A DNA stretch of 64,000 nt from Thermocatellispora tengchongensis (GTDB taxonomy: Bacteria; Actinomycetota; Actinomycetes; Streptosporangiales; Streptosporangiaceae), in the NCBI RefSeq assembly GCF_014202315.1, contig NZ_JACHGN010000014.1, forward strand, positions 1 through 64,000. The letters run 5' to 3'. The notes below the pieces were generated by a model that did not search any database, was not told where the DNA came from, and worked only from the letters and a program-made list of their open reading frames with translations. Every line of letters starts with the position of its first letter. Within the stretch, counting starts at the first letter, position 1. The position numbers and the translations under genes were made by a program. Of this stretch, positions 5,549-59,712 are shown piece by piece.

Positions 5549-6193
5549 TCAGGAGACGGCACCGCTGGAGGGCACCTGCCGCGCGCTGCGCACCACGTGG
5601 TCGATGAAGCCGTAGTCCTTGGCCTCGTCGGCGGTGAACCAGCGGTCGCGGTCGGAATCCTTCTCGATCTGTTCGAGCGGCTGGCCGGTGTGGTAGGCAA
5701 TACGCTCGGCCAGGGTCTTCTTCACGTAGAGCATCTGCTCCGCCTGGATGGCGATGTCGGCGGCGGTTCCGCCGATGCCACCGGAAGGCTGGTGCATCAT
5801 GATGCGGGCGTGGGGCAGTGCGTAACGCTTGCCGTGGGCGCCGGCGCAGAGCAGGAACTGCCCCATCGAGGCGGCGAGGCCCATGGCGACGGTGCACACG
5901 TCGTTAGGCACATACTCCATCATGTCGTAGATCGCCATACCTGACGTCACCGAACCGCCCGGCGAGTTGATGTACAGGTAGATATCGCGTTCGGAGTCGT
6001 CGGCCGCAAGCAGCAGCAGCTCCGCGCAGATTCGGTTGGCGATCTCGTCGTTGACCTGGGAGCCCAGCACGATGATGCGCTCGCGCAGCAGCCGCTGATA
6101 AAGCTGGTCTTCGAGCCGGAACGAGCCGTTGGGCTGGCTCGACGAGGCGGGCTCGAAGCCGTTCGGCTGGTAGAGGGTCGGCGGGCTGGTCAC
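5549..6193 (-). CDS. clpP1: ATP-dependent Clp protease proteolytic subunit ClpP1
   Basis: First gene of the clpP1-clpP2 pair. The catalytic serine is at about residue 109 (GLAAS) and the histidine at about 134 (MMHQPSGG), with the acidic residue in the DSDRDR segment. I chose the GTG at 6193 because GGAAGG lies seven bases upstream and because a TAGGGT -10 box and a ClgR-type operator lie just before it. An ATG at 6265 would add 24 residues but would place the -10 box inside the gene. Confidence 0.93.
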
Positions 6194-7391: not shown

Positions 7392-8783
7392 CTACTCGGC
7401 GGGCTTGTCGGTCGCCTGCTCCTCGGACGGCGCCTCGGCGGACTCGCCCTCGGCCGGAGGGTTGATCTCGGCGTAGATGGCCTTGAGGTCGACCTCGTTG
7501 CCGTTCTCGTCGACGACCTTGGCGGCGTCGCCGAGGACGGTCTTGGCCTTGTCGCGGACGATCTCGACCATGGCCAGCGTGAGCTGGTCGTTGTCGGCGA
7601 GGTGCTGGGCGAGGGTGTTGGGGGCCACGCCCAGCTCCATGGCGCGGCGGACGACGAAGTTGGTGAGCTCCTGCTCGGAGACGCCGAGGTCCTCCTGCTT
7701 GACGATCTTGTCGAGCACGAAGCCGGTCTTCAGCGCCTTGGCGGCGGTCTGCTCGAACTCCTGGAAGCGCTCCTCTTCCGTGGTCTGGTAGAGGCGGAAG
7801 AACGCGTCGCGGCTGAGGCCGCTGTCGGCGATCTGGTGCTCAAGGTTGTGCTTGCGCGCGTCGATCTCGGTCTTCAGCGCGCTGTCGGGCAGCGGGATGT
7901 CGATCTGCTCCAGGAGGGCGTCGAGCGCCTTGTCGCGGGCCTCCATGACCTGCTGCACGATCTTGTTGCGGCGGACCTGCCCGCGCAGGCTCTCGCGCAG
8001 CTCCTCCAGCGTGTCGAACTCGCTGGCGAGCTGGGCGAAGTCGTCGTCGAGCTCGGGGAGGACCTTCTCCTTGACCGACTTGACGGAGACCGTGATCTGG
8101 GCCTCCTCGCCCGCGTTCTGGCCGCCGACCAGCTCGGAGGTGAAGACCTTCTCCTCGCCCGCGGACATGCCCTCCAGGGCGGCGTCGAGGCCCTGCAGCA
8201 CCGAGCCGGCGCCGACCTCGTACGACACCTCGCTCGCCTGCTGCTCCTCGATGTTCTTGCCGTCGATGGACGCGGCGAGGTCCATGACGACGTAGTCGCC
8301 CTTGCGCGCCGGGCGCTCGACGCCGGTGAGGGTGGCGAAGCGCTGGCGCAGGGAGTCGAGCTGCGCGTCGATGTCGGCGTCGGAGACCTCGGCCGTGCTG
8401 ACCGTCACCTCGATGCCCTGGTAGTCGGGGAGGTCGAAGTTGGGCCGGATGTCCACCTCGGCGGTGAACTCGACCTGCTGACCGTCCTCGATCTTCGTGA
8501 CCTCGATGTCCGGCTGGCTGACCGGGAAGATGTCGCTCTCGTCAACGGCCTGGCCGTACAGCTTCGGGACCGCGTCGTTGAGCGTCTCCTCCAGCACCAC
8601 TGCGCGGCCGAAGCGCTGCTCGATGATGCGAGCAGGGACCTTGCCGGGGCGGAAACCGGGGACGCGCACCTGCTGCGCGACCTTCTTGTACGCCGCCTTC
8701 ATGCTTTCGCCGAGTTCCTCGAACGGTACCTCGACGGTGAGCTTCACCCGGGTCGGGGTGAGCTCCTCGACAGCGGTCTTCAC
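7392..8783 (-). CDS. tig: Trigger factor (ribosome-bound chaperone and prolyl isomerase)
   Basis: Binds the ribosome exit tunnel and holds nascent chains. The 463 residues fall into the three known domains. The N-terminal ribosome-binding domain carries the signature GFRPGKVP near residue 44, an FKBP-type prolyl isomerase domain spans roughly 155-240, and a helical C-terminal chaperone domain follows. The acidic Glu/Ala/Pro-rich tail is common in actinobacteria. The ATG follows AAGGAG. Its neighbours clpP1, clpP2 and clpX are the classic association. A strong hairpin ends the unit. Confidence 0.96.
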   Translation of the reverse strand: MKTAVEELTPTRVKLTVEVPFEELGESMKAAYKKVAQQVRVPGFRPGKVPARIIEQRFGRAVVLEETLNDAVPKLYGQAVDESDIFPVSQPDIEVTKIEDGQQVEFTAEVDIRPNFDLPDYQGIEVTVSTAEVSDADIDAQLDSLRQRFATLTGVERPARKGDYVVMDLAASIDGKNIEEQQASEVSYEVGAGSVLQGLDAALEGMSAGEEKVFTSELVGGQNAGEEAQITVSVKSVKEKVLPELDDDFAQLASEFDTLEELRESLRGQVRRNKIVQQVMEARDKALDALLEQIDIPLPDSALKTEIDARKHNLEHQIADSGLSRDAFFRLYQTTEEERFQEFEQTAAKALKTGFVLDKIVKQEDLGVSEQELTNFVVRRAMELGVAPNTLAQHLADNDQLTLAMVEIVRDKAKTVLGDAAKVVDENGNEVDLKAIYAEINPPAEGESAEAPSEEQATDKPAE

Positions 8784-54612: not shown

Positions 54613-56646
54613 TCAGCGGCCGAGGGCCTCGCGGATGTCCGGGTCCTCGGGGTCGAGGTCGAAGGCGAGGCGCAGGTCGGCCGCCGCCTCCTGCTCCCGG
54701 CCCAGGGCGCGCAGGGCCGTGGCCCGGTTGAACAGCAGGCCCGCGCGCTCCTCGGCGTCCGCCAGCTCGATGGCGCGGCTGAGATCCGCCACCGCGCCCG
54801 CGGCGTCGCCCGCCTCGAAGCGCAGGATGCCGCGGTTGGCCCAGGCCGTGCCGAGCCCGGGATCGGCGCGCAGGGCCTCGCCGAAGGCCCGTTCGGCCTC
54901 CTCGTGGTTGCCCTCGGCGGTCTCCACCTGGCCCAGCACCGACCACAGGTGGGCGTTGCGGGGGTCGATGGCGAACCCGGCGGTGACGTCCGCCCGCGCC
55001 TCGGCCGGCCGCCCGGCCATCGCCCACAGGCCGGCCCGGTTGATGTAGGCGTCGAGGTAGCCCGGGTCCAGCTCGATCACCCGGCCGAGATCGGCGAGCG
55101 CGGCGTCCTGCTCGCCGAGCGCGATGCGCAGCTCGGCCCGGTTGTAGTACGCCTCCGGCAGGGGCGGGCTCAGCCGGATCGCGGCCTCGTAGTCGTTCAG
55201 GGCGCCGTCGAGCATTCCCAGCCGGAACAGCAGGTTGCCCCGTTCGAGGTAGTAGTCGGGGAAGGCCGGGTCGAGCGCGATGGCCGCGTTGTAGTCCTCC
55301 AGGGCCTCCTTGGTCTGCCCGCGCCCGGCCAGGAGCTGGGCCCGGTTGGCGAGCAGCACCATGCGGTGCTGGAGGTGGCGGCCGGGTGGCAGGTCGCGCA
55401 CGGCGAGGTCGATCGCCGACTCCACCAGCTCCAGCGCCGCCTCCGGACGGCCGAGGCGCAGTTCGATCAGCGCCCGCCCGTTGCGGTCGAAGCCCAGCTT
55501 GAACGCCCGGTCGGCGCGGTCGGGCAGCAGCGTGGAGATCGCGATGGCCGTGTTGATCCAGCCCATCGCCCGGTCCAGGTCACGCTGCGCCGGGTCGGGA
55601 TGCCGGGCGTCCAGCATCGCGCTGCCGTACGCCGCCGCCGCGTGCACGGCCGGCTTGGTGCTGACCCGCCTGGCCCGGTTCCACAGCCGCCACGCCTCGT
55701 CGTGCCGGCCCAGCCCCGCCATCGCGGTCGCCGTGCGCTGGAGGAACCGCCACCACAGGTCCGAGTCCTCCGCGACGACGGCCAGCCCGCGCATGCCCAG
55801 GTCGGCGACCGCGTCGAGGAACCCCTCGGTCACGCAGTGGTCCACCGCCGCCCACAGCGCGGCGGCCCCGGCGCCGCCCGGGTCGCCGCCGTGCTCGCGG
55901 TGGTACGGGATCGCGCCCAGCTCCGCCCCCGGCTCGCCGTTCCGGATCAGCTCCTCGGCGCGCCGGTCGTGCAGCGCCGCCCGCTCCCCCGGGTCCAGCG
56001 CCTCGTACGCGGCCACGATCCGCGGGTCGTCCTCGGACCCGTCGCTGTCCACGTACGCGCGCGCGGCCTCGGCGCCGAAGGCGAGATCGGGCTCCGGGAC
56101 AGGCGGGGCGTACGCGGTACGGCCCCGGAACGCCTCGGGCGCGGGCCCGCCGGCACAGGCCACGACGGTCAGCAGTTCCGGGTCGATGCGGCGGGCCAGC
56201 ACGATCAGCAGCTCGCGGTCGGTGGCGTCGGCCTCGTGCACGTTCTCCACGACCAGTACGGAGCGGCGCGGGGCGCAGGCGCGTACGAACTCGGTGATCC
56301 CGTTGGCGAGGCGCAGCGAGCGGCGGGGCGCGGGCACGAGAATGCGCTCGTCCTCGGCCAGGCGCGCGTCAAGCGTCTCATCCGGGACCGGCACCAGCTC
56401 CCGCAGATCGGGCGCGACACTGCGAATCTCGATATGCCGGGCGGCCACCTCGCCGGGATGGCGCGCCAGCGCGCCCGGCACGAGCGCACGCAGCAACGCG
56501 CTCCCCACCGCATAGGGCCCGCGCACTCGCCGATGCGCGTTCACCACGGGCGCGATCAATGGGAGCGGCCCCCACGAGGCGCGCTCCCCCGCCCTGTCAC
56601 GAGAGAGCGCACCCCGGAGCCACAAGTGGCAGGAGTGGTCTATCAC
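54613..56646 (-). CDS. TPR protein with degenerate ATPase-like N-terminus
   Basis: Protein of 677 residues. The N-terminal 200 residues resemble the ATPase part of large regulators: SVLVVENVHEADATDRELLIV looks like a Walker B region, but no Walker A lysine is found, so nucleotide hydrolysis is doubtful. From about 300 to the end there are many tetratricopeptide repeats, for example NRAQLLAGRGQTKEALEDYNAAIALDP-type units. The GTG start overlaps the TGA of a 24-residue peptide gene by four bases, which implies coupled translation. No HTH, membrane helix or enzyme domain is seen. Confidence 0.88.
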   Translation of the reverse strand: MIDHSCHLWLRGALSRDRAGERASWGPLPLIAPVVNAHRRVRGPYAVGSALLRALVPGALARHPGEVAARHIEIRSVAPDLRELVPVPDETLDARLAEDERILVPAPRRSLRLANGITEFVRACAPRRSVLVVENVHEADATDRELLIVLARRIDPELLTVVACAGGPAPEAFRGRTAYAPPVPEPDLAFGAEAARAYVDSDGSEDDPRIVAAYEALDPGERAALHDRRAEELIRNGEPGAELGAIPYHREHGGDPGGAGAAALWAAVDHCVTEGFLDAVADLGMRGLAVVAEDSDLWWRFLQRTATAMAGLGRHDEAWRLWNRARRVSTKPAVHAAAAYGSAMLDARHPDPAQRDLDRAMGWINTAIAISTLLPDRADRAFKLGFDRNGRALIELRLGRPEAALELVESAIDLAVRDLPPGRHLQHRMVLLANRAQLLAGRGQTKEALEDYNAAIALDPAFPDYYLERGNLLFRLGMLDGALNDYEAAIRLSPPLPEAYYNRAELRIALGEQDAALADLGRVIELDPGYLDAYINRAGLWAMAGRPAEARADVTAGFAIDPRNAHLWSVLGQVETAEGNHEEAERAFGEALRADPGLGTAWANRGILRFEAGDAAGAVADLSRAIELADAEERAGLLFNRATALRALGREQEAAADLRLAFDLDPEDPDIREALGR

Positions 56647-56717
56647 CCCTTGTGGATGACGCTGGCGTTACCGGTGAGCTTGGCGAGACCCGGCTTGCGC
56701 ACGATGATTTTCTTCAT
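56643..56717 (-). CDS. 24-residue cationic peptide, coupled to the TPR gene
   Basis: Starts MKKIIVRKPG, continues through LAKLTG and ends NASVIHKG; strongly basic, without cysteine or a signal peptide. The ATG lies after GAGGGGAG. A promoter (TTGTGG, 18 bases, TAATTG) sits about 30 bases upstream. The stop overlaps the TPR gene start (GTGA). It could be a RiPP precursor, a signalling peptide or a partner of the TPR protein. Short peptides of this KKIIVRKPG style occur in actinobacterial peptide clusters, from memory and unverified. I do not assign a function. Confidence 0.6.
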   Translation of the reverse strand: MKKIIVRKPGLAKLTGNASVIHKG

Positions 56718-56744
56718 GTCTCCCCTCAAACTCGACTTAGGCTT

Positions 56745-56774
56745 CAATTATTCGGGCAAAGCGGAAATCCACAA
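56745..56774 (-). promoter_or_regulatory. Promoter of the peptide-TPR unit
   Basis: TTGTGG (56774-56769), an 18-base spacer and TAATTG (56750-56745) on the minus strand. Lies in an AT-rich stretch upstream of the peptide gene. Confidence 0.55.
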
Positions 56775-57249: not shown

Positions 57250-57768
57250 TCAGAGGGGGTTGGGGGAGGTGATTTGGTGGGTCTGGTCGGGGACCAGGGG
57301 TTTTTCGACGTAGATGACGGTCAGGCCGCCCACCTCGGTGCGGCGGGTCTCGCGCCAGCCGTACTTGTGGTACAGGCTGAGGGCGGCGCGCTGGTTGAGC
57401 GTGGTGTCGCCGCGTACGACCCGGTAGCCGAGGGACAGGGCGCTGGACTCCAGGGTGCGCAGCATCAGCTCACCGAAGCCGCGGCGCTGGTACTCGGGGT
57501 GGACCCGCAGGCGGCACATCTCGGCCGCCTCGTCGTCGATCCGGCGTAGGCCGCCCATGGCCACGAGGCGCCGGCCGGTGGCGCCGGGGACCTCGCCGAC
57601 CAGGAACTCGCCCCGGTCGGCCAGGTAGATCTCGTGGATGCGGGGGAAGTCGTCGTCGTAGTACACCCCGTCGCCCGAGGCCAGGCCCACCTGGGCCATG
57701 CAGATCTGGTGCAGGGCACACACGGCTTCGAGGTCAGACCAGCGGTAGCGCCTGATCGTCAAGGTCAT
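57250..57768 (-). CDS. GNAT-family N-acetyltransferase
   Basis: Protein of 172 residues. The acetyl-CoA-binding motif A is CRLRVHPEYQRRGFGELMLRTLE, followed by motif B near LNQRAALSLYHKYGWRET. The substrate is unknown. Its ATG is three bases after the stop of the XRE-TPR regulator gene, so the two are co-transcribed and the acetyltransferase may be controlled by, or work with, that regulator. Confidence 0.9.
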   Translation of the reverse strand: MTLTIRRYRWSDLEAVCALHQICMAQVGLASGDGVYYDDDFPRIHEIYLADRGEFLVGEVPGATGRRLVAMGGLRRIDDEAAEMCRLRVHPEYQRRGFGELMLRTLESSALSLGYRVVRGDTTLNQRAALSLYHKYGWRETRRTEVGGLTVIYVEKPLVPDQTHQITSPNPL

Positions 57769-57771
57769 GCA

Positions 57772-59652
57772 TCAACCCTCCTGACCGGTACGCGGCGAGG
57801 TGATGGAGGTGATGGGGGTGACGGAGGCCAGGGGGCCTGAGTCGTCGGAGCCATCGGCCTCGCCGGGGCCGGTCATGGATTCCGGAGAAGCGGTGTCGGT
57901 CGGGTCGGGAGAGGGGGTGGGGGCTGCGGCGGGCGTGGCGGTGGCCGGGGGCTGGGGGGACGCGGCCTCGCGCTCGGAGGCCAGGCGGAGCTTCTCCAGG
58001 GCCTCGGCCGCGGCGGAGTTGTCCTTGTCGCTCCGGCTGCTCTTGCGCCCGGACGAGACGGTGGCCAGCGCGACCGTGGTGTCGAGGTTGGCCAGCGACG
58101 CCTCGGGGTTGGGCTTCTTCAGCAGTTCGCGGTAGGGCTCCAGTAGGGGGTGCCTGGGGTTCTTGGCCGCGACGGCCTTGGCCAGCTCGTCGGCGCGCTT
58201 GATCACGATGTCGGCGCGGTAGCTCGCCTCCAGCTCCGAGAGCAGCTTGTAGCCGATCTCCATCGCCTCGTCGAGGTCGCCCTCCAGCACCTTGCACTTG
58301 GCCCGGTCGAAGCGGATCAGCACCGGGTCGAGCCACTCGGACGGGCCGTACTTGGTGAGCGCCTGCTCCAGCACCAGGTCGGCCTCCAGGGCCTGGCCCA
58401 GCTTGACCAGCGCGTCGCCCTGGTGGAAGTAGAGCTGGCGCTCGGTGTAGCCGAAGGTGGCGTCGTCCTTCTCGTTGGCGCTCATCTGGGCGAAGGCGGC
58501 CCTGGCCCGTGACAGCGCGCGCTTGGCCTGGTCGACGACGTCCTTGCGGCCGCTGCCGGAGAGCATGGCCAGCGCGCGGGCCTCCACGACCGGGGCCATC
58601 GCCTGGGCCGCGCACGGGGTCTGGCCGGCGAGGTCGCGGCTCTTCTTGGCCAGGTTCAGCGCCTCGCGCGGGTCGCCGAGGTAGAGCGGGACCAGGGCCT
58701 CGCGGGCGCACACCCAGGCGCGCAGGGCGCGGTTGCCGGTCTCGTCGGCGGCGGTGCGGCCGGTCCGGAAGAAGGCCCGGGCCAGGCGGTGGTCGCCGAG
58801 GTTGATCATGATCATGCCGCCCAGGCCGGCGAGCTGCGCGGCCATGTGGCACAGCCGGTCCTGCAGGTCGATGGGCTGGCGCCGGTCCATGGCCTTGCGG
58901 ACGGCGCTGAACTCCAGCATCACGTCGCACAGCAGGCGCAGCGGCGGGGTGTTCATGTACTGGCGGCCGAACCCCGCCAGCGCCTCCTCCCACTGGTCGA
59001 GCATCGCCGGCGACACCGTGGCCGAGACGAGGGTCTCGTCCATGCGGCGGCGGATGTTCTCGATGGCGCCCAGCACCGGCGCGGCCAGCTCGGCCTGGAC
59101 GGTGGCGGGGTTGGTGAGGACGGTCAGCAGGCTGGTGCGGAGGATGTTCTCGTCCTCCTCGTTGGCCGCCGATCCGGGGTCGGGCCCGGCGGGCTGGATG
59201 TACAGCTCGCGGTGGGAGTTGCGCAGGTCGATGCGGGTCACGTTGCCGTCGGAGTCGCCGCGCATCACACCGGGCATGCGGTGGCCGTGGCCGCAGATGC
59301 ACGGCCCGTCGTAGCCGAGGTTGGCCGGCTCGACCCGGTAGACCGAGCACAGGTAGTGGAGGTATTCGGGGCCGGGGCGCTTGAGGCCGCTCTCGTAGGA
59401 CGACAGCAGGGTCTCGCCCATGCCCGGCTGTGACTTGCCGTCTCGGGCGAACAGGGCGCGCACCTGCTCGATCACGTCGGCCAGCGCGATCCCGTGCGCC
59501 AGGCGCTGGCTCTTGATCCGAGTCGTGCCGTAGTCGGCGGAGCACTCCTCGTAGATCATGTCGGCGATCTGGGCCGTGCTGCGGCCGGCGGCCAAACCTT
59601 TGGCCCGTATCTGCCGCGCGATCTCCGTTTCTCTGTGTTGCCTGCCGGACAT
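57772..59652 (-). CDS. Large XRE/TPR-type transcriptional regulator
   Basis: Protein of about 626 residues. The N-terminal part resembles actinomycete XRE regulators: RETEIARQIRAKGLAAGRSTAQIADMIYEEC, then LLSSYESGLKRPGPEYLHYLCSVYRV. A short CICGHGH segment may bind metal. Residues 150-560 are mostly helical TPR-like repeats, and the tail is Pro/Thr/Ala-rich and disordered. I chose the ATG after GGAGAGGGG; a GTG at 59712 would add 20 basic residues. It is divergent from the small gene at 60035. Confidence 0.82.
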   Translation of the reverse strand: MSGRQHRETEIARQIRAKGLAAGRSTAQIADMIYEECSADYGTTRIKSQRLAHGIALADVIEQVRALFARDGKSQPGMGETLLSSYESGLKRPGPEYLHYLCSVYRVEPANLGYDGPCICGHGHRMPGVMRGDSDGNVTRIDLRNSHRELYIQPAGPDPGSAANEEDENILRTSLLTVLTNPATVQAELAAPVLGAIENIRRRMDETLVSATVSPAMLDQWEEALAGFGRQYMNTPPLRLLCDVMLEFSAVRKAMDRRQPIDLQDRLCHMAAQLAGLGGMIMINLGDHRLARAFFRTGRTAADETGNRALRAWVCAREALVPLYLGDPREALNLAKKSRDLAGQTPCAAQAMAPVVEARALAMLSGSGRKDVVDQAKRALSRARAAFAQMSANEKDDATFGYTERQLYFHQGDALVKLGQALEADLVLEQALTKYGPSEWLDPVLIRFDRAKCKVLEGDLDEAMEIGYKLLSELEASYRADIVIKRADELAKAVAAKNPRHPLLEPYRELLKKPNPEASLANLDTTVALATVSSGRKSSRSDKDNSAAAEALEKLRLASEREAASPQPPATATPAAAPTPSPDPTDTASPESMTGPGEADGSDDSGPLASVTPITSITSPRTGQEG

Positions 59653-59712
59653 CCCGGCCCCTCTCCCCTTGCCAGCCTTGCGGCGTGGCCGCTTCCCGAC
59701 CGGTCCACTCAC

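Follow-up and report, generated by a model that had tools for sequence, protein, structure and literature searches.

Among the peptide–receptor systems grouped as RRNPP, the Rap proteins have no DNA-binding domain and act by binding another protein, and in Rgg-SHP an M50-type protease, Eep, serves the peptide SHP. A locus that invites comparison with these systems lies in a 64,000-nucleotide stretch of DNA from Thermocatellispora tengchongensis (contig NZ_JACHGN010000014.1; hereafter the window), where the gene for a 24-residue peptide runs directly into the gene for a 677-residue tetratricopeptide repeat (TPR) protein. As in the RRNPP systems, a short peptide gene adjoins a TPR receptor gene, an arrangement present in 84 of the 94 places located with the peptide as query; like Rap, the TPR protein has no recognised DNA-binding domain; and some relatives of the pair possess an M50-type protease, as SHP has Eep. 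Unlike those systems, the pair is actinobacterial, its peptide is nearly fixed across the genera of the window's own group of relatives (the RKPG group, defined below), the TPR protein begins with a pseudo-AAA domain, the two genes overlap stop to start, and the window's form comes with no protease. A secretion signal, which is a feature of RRNPP propeptides, was not seen in the 24-mer, which by reading, with no predictor run, has no long hydrophobic segment. The part of PMC10075063 from which we take the RRNPP comparison describes signals in the phylum of the Actinomycetota as typically small molecules, and the literature matches listed held nothing on this peptide–TPR pair.

The proteases of daptides and epipeptides (MpaP, NF041824; YydH/LiaK, NF058609) offer a second comparison, as relatives of the window's locus that carry three genes pair a distant HExxH protease with a precursor-like peptide. 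They differ from these relatives in that the latter score far below the curated cut-offs, have no recognised common modifying enzyme and carry a TPR gene instead, and in that the window's form has no protease. According to the accessible part of PMC10036551, the daptide leader protease removes the leader in a manner dependent on the recognition element (RRE) of ribosomally synthesized and post-translationally modified peptides (RiPPs). The AfsR/STAND regulators (NOD plus TPR in the portion available of PMC10936776) likewise place a nucleotide-binding-type domain before a TPR array, whereas the TPR protein described here has neither a SARP domain nor a Walker A lysine and is coupled to a peptide. 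The TPR domain of OGT (1w3b) has the same repeat fold with asparagines along its repeats, but there is no transferase domain here, and only the repeat fold is common, as it is in many proteins. Asparagines of this kind in the OGT repeats hold peptide backbones. What is new here is the likely origin of the pair, which sequence comparison places in a protease-bearing three-gene cassette.

The peptide gene occupies positions 56643..56717 of the reverse strand, on which all features of the window given below also lie; it starts with ATG and, from translation, encodes MKKIIVRKPGLAKLTGNASVIHKG followed by TGA. A Shine–Dalgarno sequence, GAGGGGAG, can be read at 56720..56727. The stop codon lies within a GTGA (56643..56646) whose GTG starts the TPR gene (54613..56646). 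A preliminary description of this DNA, made from the letters alone, had reported a peptide frame with its own ribosome site and a TGA overlapping the GTG of the TPR gene, and the coordinates agree with that account. Neither Pfam nor NCBIfam matched the peptide. Relatives were gathered in 150 genomes of the family by the TPR protein and, independently, by the peptide alone. The peptide search (E ≤ 1e-3) gave 96 places, 94 of which were examined (G121:C8 and G099:C1:7460726 were left out): besides the 84 in which a TPR gene follows, one runs into a contig end, one (L112) lacks an intact frame for the peptide, and in eight the peptide stands by itself. Both routes together yield 128 distinct places, 103 with two genes, 15 with three and 10 with no TPR gene (including one chance match and one contig end), a count that is biased because some loci were found via the TPR protein. 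A TPR match at E ≤ 1e-100 was present in 70 of the 150 genomes, and 66 of these also had a peptide match at E ≤ 1e-3; the remaining four (G013, G031, G102, and G114) carry divergent peptides at the TPR locus. Conversely, no genome of the 150 had the peptide at that threshold yet no TPR match.

The loci with no third gene fall into two groups, RKPG and HKPG, set by residue 7 of the peptide alone, with one cysteine-bearing peptide (L021) counted as RKPG; L039 sits among the RKPG rows on the TPR tree described below, and four peptides with no TPR gene (L118, L175, L183, and L208) bear the histidine while occupying the chromosomal place of the NsdA-family gene described further below. The RKPG group, to which the window belongs, comprises 63 loci, with 62 peptides of 24 residues. 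The four-base overlap is retained in 60 of its 62 pairs with a TPR gene, and GTG serves in 59 of its 61 overlapping starts. The HKPG group has 49 loci once the chance match (L099) is dropped; here, similarity to the TPR protein often sets in tens of bases to about 170 bases beyond the peptide. Among the loci gathered, L055 breaks off 378 bases past its peptide. Peptide and TPR gene are separated by a gene of about 400–480 codons in the three-gene form, which comprises 15 loci, or 16 with L155, which is missing from the locus counts because its peptide scored under the cut-off. Pairs of one form are often found at a common chromosomal place, and the window's genome holds a second pair (L104), with the peptide MKKIIVHKPGPVTLKGAASAKHEG.

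Over codons 2–24 of 56 distinct peptide open reading frames (ORFs), a set made up of the RKPG and the closer HKPG peptides, the proportion of synonymous differences (pS) is 0.51 and that of nonsynonymous differences (pN) 0.17, and ungapped identity is 0.77 across the peptide against 0.28 in the 72 bases just upstream; because the sequences are related, these figures describe a pattern and not a probability. Six residues are invariant in the set: K2, K8, L14, G16, S19, and H22. On this comparison, the peptide is shown to be a protein-level gene under purifying selection. The coupled peptide gene proposed earlier is genuine, and it withstands the refuting condition set with that proposal, both its frame and its overlap being conserved beside homologues of the TPR protein.

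The protein encoded by the third gene, where present, has several hydrophobic stretches (judged by reading). HExxH is found in all 15 of these proteases examined, with a conserved TDxY further along, and Pfam M50 was matched below cut-off in two of the six scanned. The profile of this family and that of a second M50-type family align from end to end (hhalign, 4.9e-72). Of six members scanned in the latter, two hit NF041824, the model of the daptide intramembrane metalloprotease: L168 (5e-8, 32.5 bits, over residues 26–374) and L166 (1.5e-5, 24.3 bits), both far below the cut-off of 300; L168 also matches YydH/LiaK (NF058609, 0.029). Comparison of the protease profile with solved structures by sequence found none. 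The product of the third gene is, on these matches, a membrane protease of the HExxH type and a distant relative of the daptide leader peptidase. As the daptide enzyme removes its leader RRE-dependently, the three-gene cassette has the appearance of a RiPP precursor accompanied by a leader peptidase, the RRE being presumed. At E ≤ 1e-5 the protease profile matches in 40 of the 150 family genomes, the close type being present in 13, and in six genomes of the class beyond the family, three of which hold the close type. The peptide profile picks out the same three genomes (G305, 4.4e-7; G386, 7.6e-4; G524, 2.2e-3), matches that stand above the background of weak ones. In the window's genome, neither protease family was matched (the scan for the second family having no positive control), PqqD gave no match (control positive in 3 of 14 genomes), and no RRE-bearing maturation enzyme, as expected alongside a RiPP precursor, was found.

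Several features of the protease-bearing loci may be recorded here. One of the three-gene cassettes outside the family (L107, 4159–4260, −) has a Cys-rich tail, MKKIVVRKPGTVRLTAMACYCYGCCCCGGRAAI. In L105 (8735–9856), L106 (2593–3669), and L111 (2283–3362), a gene for an old-yellow-enzyme-like flavoprotein, named by reading, follows the TPR gene, and a large divergent gene, AfsR-like in L106 as read from the N termini, lies upstream of the cassettes. The second protease family is preceded by a gene of about 360 codons in L157 (5355–6449, +), L158 (7938–9026, −), L160 (5120–6214, +), and L161 (7689–8753, −), with a common start LKECxxExxGDEL and near AfsR-like regulator genes. A leader code held in common with this second family was considered and is not supported, as a fitting leader-like peptide accompanies only 1 of 12 proteases (L164). 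That ORF, MRREVILVKIEIKRVENTRLTQLIHPDS (7490–7576, −), lies just upstream of the protease gene and resembles a KIxIRKxxxxRLT leader. In term look-ups, the words tetratricopeptide, TPR, and M50 were absent from the main text of two papers on RREs (PMC12710340 and PMC7470986).

The order of events can be approached through the TPR protein. In a quick tree of 95 proteins, built without bootstrap, with several long end branches and rooted on one Umezawaea protein beside which no peptide was found, the two-gene forms make up one group nested among the three-gene forms (Shimodaira–Hasegawa-like approximate likelihood ratio test, 99). The peptide groups require four changes on this tree, against 40.7 when shuffled. 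Loss of the protease in the two-gene lineage is the simplest reading of this topology, though not proof. Constraint on the peptide appears to have shifted as well. We divided the peptide into a leader (residues 2–15) and a tail (16–24) and compared both pairwise in bins of TPR identity; the pairs share history. Three-gene pairs at 30–55% TPR identity show leader identities of 0.76–0.80 and tail identities of 0.29–0.32, whereas RKPG pairs give 0.66 for the leader and 0.81 for the tail at 55–65%, and 0.77 and 0.91 at 65–80%. Distant three-gene loci, with a conserved leader and a more variable tail, look like RiPP precursors in this respect; in the RKPG group, that pattern of conserved leader and variable core is not seen, and the tail is the more conserved half. 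The tails align ungapped (LTGTSSVIHKG vs LTAAACSIYKNPN), with His22 of the window-type tail facing Tyr in 13 of 14 distinct peptides of the other form.

The presumed partner of the peptide is a protein with a GTG start, a degenerate AAA-like N-terminal domain and about 11 TPR-type helix pairs. The repeats are confirmed by Pfam (TPR_2, 3e-36, plus other TPR models), and in the AlphaFold model (mean pLDDT 82.7), confidently predicted repeats form a solenoid that begins near residue 257. The top Foldseek row is the OGT TPR domain 1w3b (3.7e-12), although repeats fill such lists. Within the array (residues 257–677; 54616..55878), five asparagines, N389, N434, N502, N536, and N640, are retained in 94, 94, 94, 94, and 93 of 94 relatives, respectively, and are present in all three forms (RKPG, HKPG, and three-gene). 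Four of them, N434, N502, N536, and N640, mark one equivalent position in four repeats, and N389 lies on an earlier helix; in three other repeats, the corresponding position is Asp, Val, or a mixed residue. Their placement, as in peptide-binding TPRs, suggests an array suited to peptides.

The N-terminal domain contains a Walker B-like strand, VLVVENVHEAD (residues 130–140; 56227..56259), evident in the sequence and its relatives, of which A139 and D140, together with nearby D143, E145, R152, and R153, are conserved in nearly all TPR relatives. At the position of the P-loop stands GPYA (residues 43–46; 56509..56520), with no lysine and with P44 and Y45 nearly invariant. A GxxxxGK[ST] motif is absent from the window's protein and from the first 420 residues of 95 relatives, in keeping with the Walker B-like region and missing Walker A lysine that the preliminary description had noted. 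AAA_16 matches weakly over residues 81–156 (5.1e-4, 21 bits, cut-off 32.6). A Foldseek search with residues 1–237 was also weak, with a best E of 0.011, rows that included AAA-type proteins and MalT, and query TM-scores of at most 0.38; VIA-align of the whole model mostly covered residues 257–677, and comparison of the N-terminal domain with solved structures by sequence gave chance-level rows only. A role in anti-phage defence was considered and dropped, the only PADLOC match being to PrimPol over TPR residues 463–528 (4.4e-5); three other proteins had no PADLOC match. In Streptosporangium sp. KLBMP 9127 (L005, about 5988–6090), the TPR frame does not open at the overlap, probably through a frameshift or sequencing error, and this locus was left out of the structure alignment because its TPR start looks broken.

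Taken as a whole, these observations lead us to favour, with confidence evenly balanced for and against, the reading that the peptide stays uncut inside the cell as a ligand or subunit of the TPR protein. We give about the same even weight to its historical counterpart, that this is a conserved peptide–receptor gene pair derived from a RiPP-like cassette and now used with no protease. In the ancestor, the peptide would have served as a precursor: an RRE-like domain of the protease would have bound its leader, and its tail would have been set free. In the window's lineage, the protease would have been lost and the peptide used whole. One promoter would give a short mRNA, on which ribosomes that finish the peptide may reinitiate at the overlapping GTG, tying synthesis of the TPR protein to that of the peptide. 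The peptide, chiefly its tail GxSSVIHKG, could then occupy the groove that the asparagines line along the TPR array and determine the state of the protein, in which the N-terminal domain, though STAND-like, has lost the ATP-binding lysine. The TPR protein might in turn act by binding another protein, the NsdA-family regulator encoded upstream being one candidate.

Besides the provisional nature of the tree, a number of observations weigh against this interpretation. None of five three-gene proteases matched NF041824 directly at E ≤ 1, and PqqD gave no match to the protease N termini scanned, so that the designation of a protease domain as RRE-like is an indirect one. The constraint comparison is not uniform: the 55–65% bin holds no three-gene pair, HKPG pairs in that bin have the less conserved tail (leader 0.67, tail 0.53), three-gene pairs at 65–80% are conserved in both halves (0.89 and 0.85), and five RKPG pairs at 45–55% show 0.66 for the leader and 0.64 for the tail. 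Conservation of Gly24 is partly forced because the GTG of the TPR start overlaps it. An overlapping start, mostly TTG, occurs in only 10 of 41 HKPG pairs, and the asparagine is absent in two of seven repeats and, in one repeat, is found in only 38 of 94 relatives. Finally, eight intact peptides have no TPR gene in reach, which shows that the peptide can persist once the adjacent TPR gene is gone. Two of these orphans, L204 and L205, differ by five synonymous changes and one nonsynonymous change, and four others (L118, L175, L183, and L208) differ among themselves with pS of 0.34–0.71 and pN of 0.08–0.22. As orphans persist and the changes between L204 and L205 are mostly synonymous, the peptide may act apart from an adjacent TPR gene; since all eight orphan genomes retain a TPR paralogue elsewhere, it may do so in trans, or it may have another target, such as the NsdA-family protein, whose gene remains next to four of the orphans.

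The alternative that survives best, which we nonetheless regard as unlikely, is that the 24-mer is the precursor of a RiPP or secreted signal, cut, modified or exported by an enzyme encoded elsewhere, with the TPR protein as its receptor or an accessory. The dedicated protease of the three-gene relatives, distant kin of RiPP leader peptidases, favours it, as do the tails of that form, which vary between distant loci and in several cases hold Cys and Tyr, and the short basic N terminus KKIIVRK, which could bind as a strand. It has to contend with the window's own genome, in which neither a protease of the two families nor PqqD was matched, with the nearly fixed tail of the RKPG group, and with the gene neighbourhoods, as no modifying enzyme gene common to the compared loci was recognised in a reading of ORF starts and neither an exporter nor a modifying enzyme gene was recognised in the ORFs beside the window's peptide. 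The preliminary description had been reminded of peptide signalling and RiPP systems; the protease-bearing relatives uphold the RiPP connection, whereas the signalling part has against it that the peptide has no evident secretion signal, that no exporter was recognised and that the window's genome has no protease.

A further possibility is that the act of translating the small ORF governs the TPR gene in cis, by coupling or arrest, with an otherwise idle product. Such a regulatory leader peptide would be consistent with the four-base overlap of the RKPG pairs and with a short conserved ORF placed directly after a conserved promoter-like element. This element, TTG-N19-AATAAT (56747..56774), ends at the upper coordinate of the region first described. 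The pattern TTG-N19..22-AATA[ACT]T precedes 50 of the 63 peptides in the RKPG group (Markov shuffles, 0.59), 16 of the 49 in the HKPG group (0.24) and none of 15 three-gene peptides (0.00), its last base lying 27–50 bases before the peptide start codon in the relatives. The promoter suggested earlier thus fits a conserved pattern, but a generic sigma-70 scan upstream of the window's peptide found no site; the AT-rich upstream region described with it is borne out across the RKPG group, where mean AT content is 0.50 in the 120 bases before the peptide and 0.29 for the loci. A palindromic operator was also considered, some upstream regions having TTCGG/CCGAA arms, which the promoter pattern explains better; a CCGRAWA-like core is present in 11 of 63 (shuffled mean 2.18, maximum 5), 6 of 50 (1.26, maximum 6), and 0 of 15 upstream regions. 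Control in cis is made improbable by the constraint on amino acids and not on bases, by eight folded RNA stretches with z-scores of −1.50 to 0.84, structure not above chance that also led us to reject a conserved RNA element or attenuator, by HKPG gaps of up to about 170 bases, by the gene of more than 1 kb that intervenes in the three-gene form, and by the persistence of peptides where the TPR gene is gone.

The preferred reading, of the peptide as a partner of the TPR protein, must finally be set against the genomic surroundings. A GNAT acetyltransferase gene (57250..57768; in 5 of 13 loci compared) and an NsdA-family regulator gene (57772..59712; NF053720, 132.3 bits, cut-off 75) lie upstream and are not part of the pair. 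The latter, on the same strand two genes upstream of the peptide, was overlooked in the earlier statement that no helix-turn-helix (HTH) gene stands nearby; its HTH is assigned from the family, Pfam giving none at E ≤ 0.01. It is found in 9 of the 13 loci, and NsdA-like genes are retained at the locus in Nonomuraea, Streptosporangium, and Microtetraspora relatives. That the peptide serves this regulator, with the TPR protein as modulator or sponge, gains something from that count and from the four loci (L118, L175, L183, and L208) that keep an NsdA-like gene (by reading; GNAT in two of four) and the peptide after TPR loss, but it is very improbable, as a chromosomal place shared by descent accounts for the neighbourhood, HKPG pairs in L015–L017 (Acrocarpospora), L117, L121, and L122 adjoin SMC-like and FtsY-like genes instead, and no NsdA-like gene was seen by three-gene cassettes (names by reading).

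With the pair read as derived from a RiPP-like cassette, a small gene that had no name gains a place in the picture of a bacterial family noted for antibiotics and is linked to RiPP leader peptidases. The natural series of three genes, two genes, and peptide alone may illustrate the path from a peptide that is processed to one that serves whole as a partner. More tentatively, and with doubt outweighing confidence, the loci may represent a class of intracellular Actinomycetota peptide–receptor pairs, in which a precursor of the RiPP type, deprived of its leader peptidase, was recruited whole as the integral ligand of a pseudo-STAND TPR protein; constraint would have passed from leader to tail, and the stop–start overlap would tie the pair together. 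The pairs provide testable candidates for peptide–TPR control in these actinobacteria. If the reading is true, the three-gene relatives would make up a peptide signalling cassette dependent on a protease, in a phylum where signals, in the part of PMC10075063 drawn on here, are typically small molecules.

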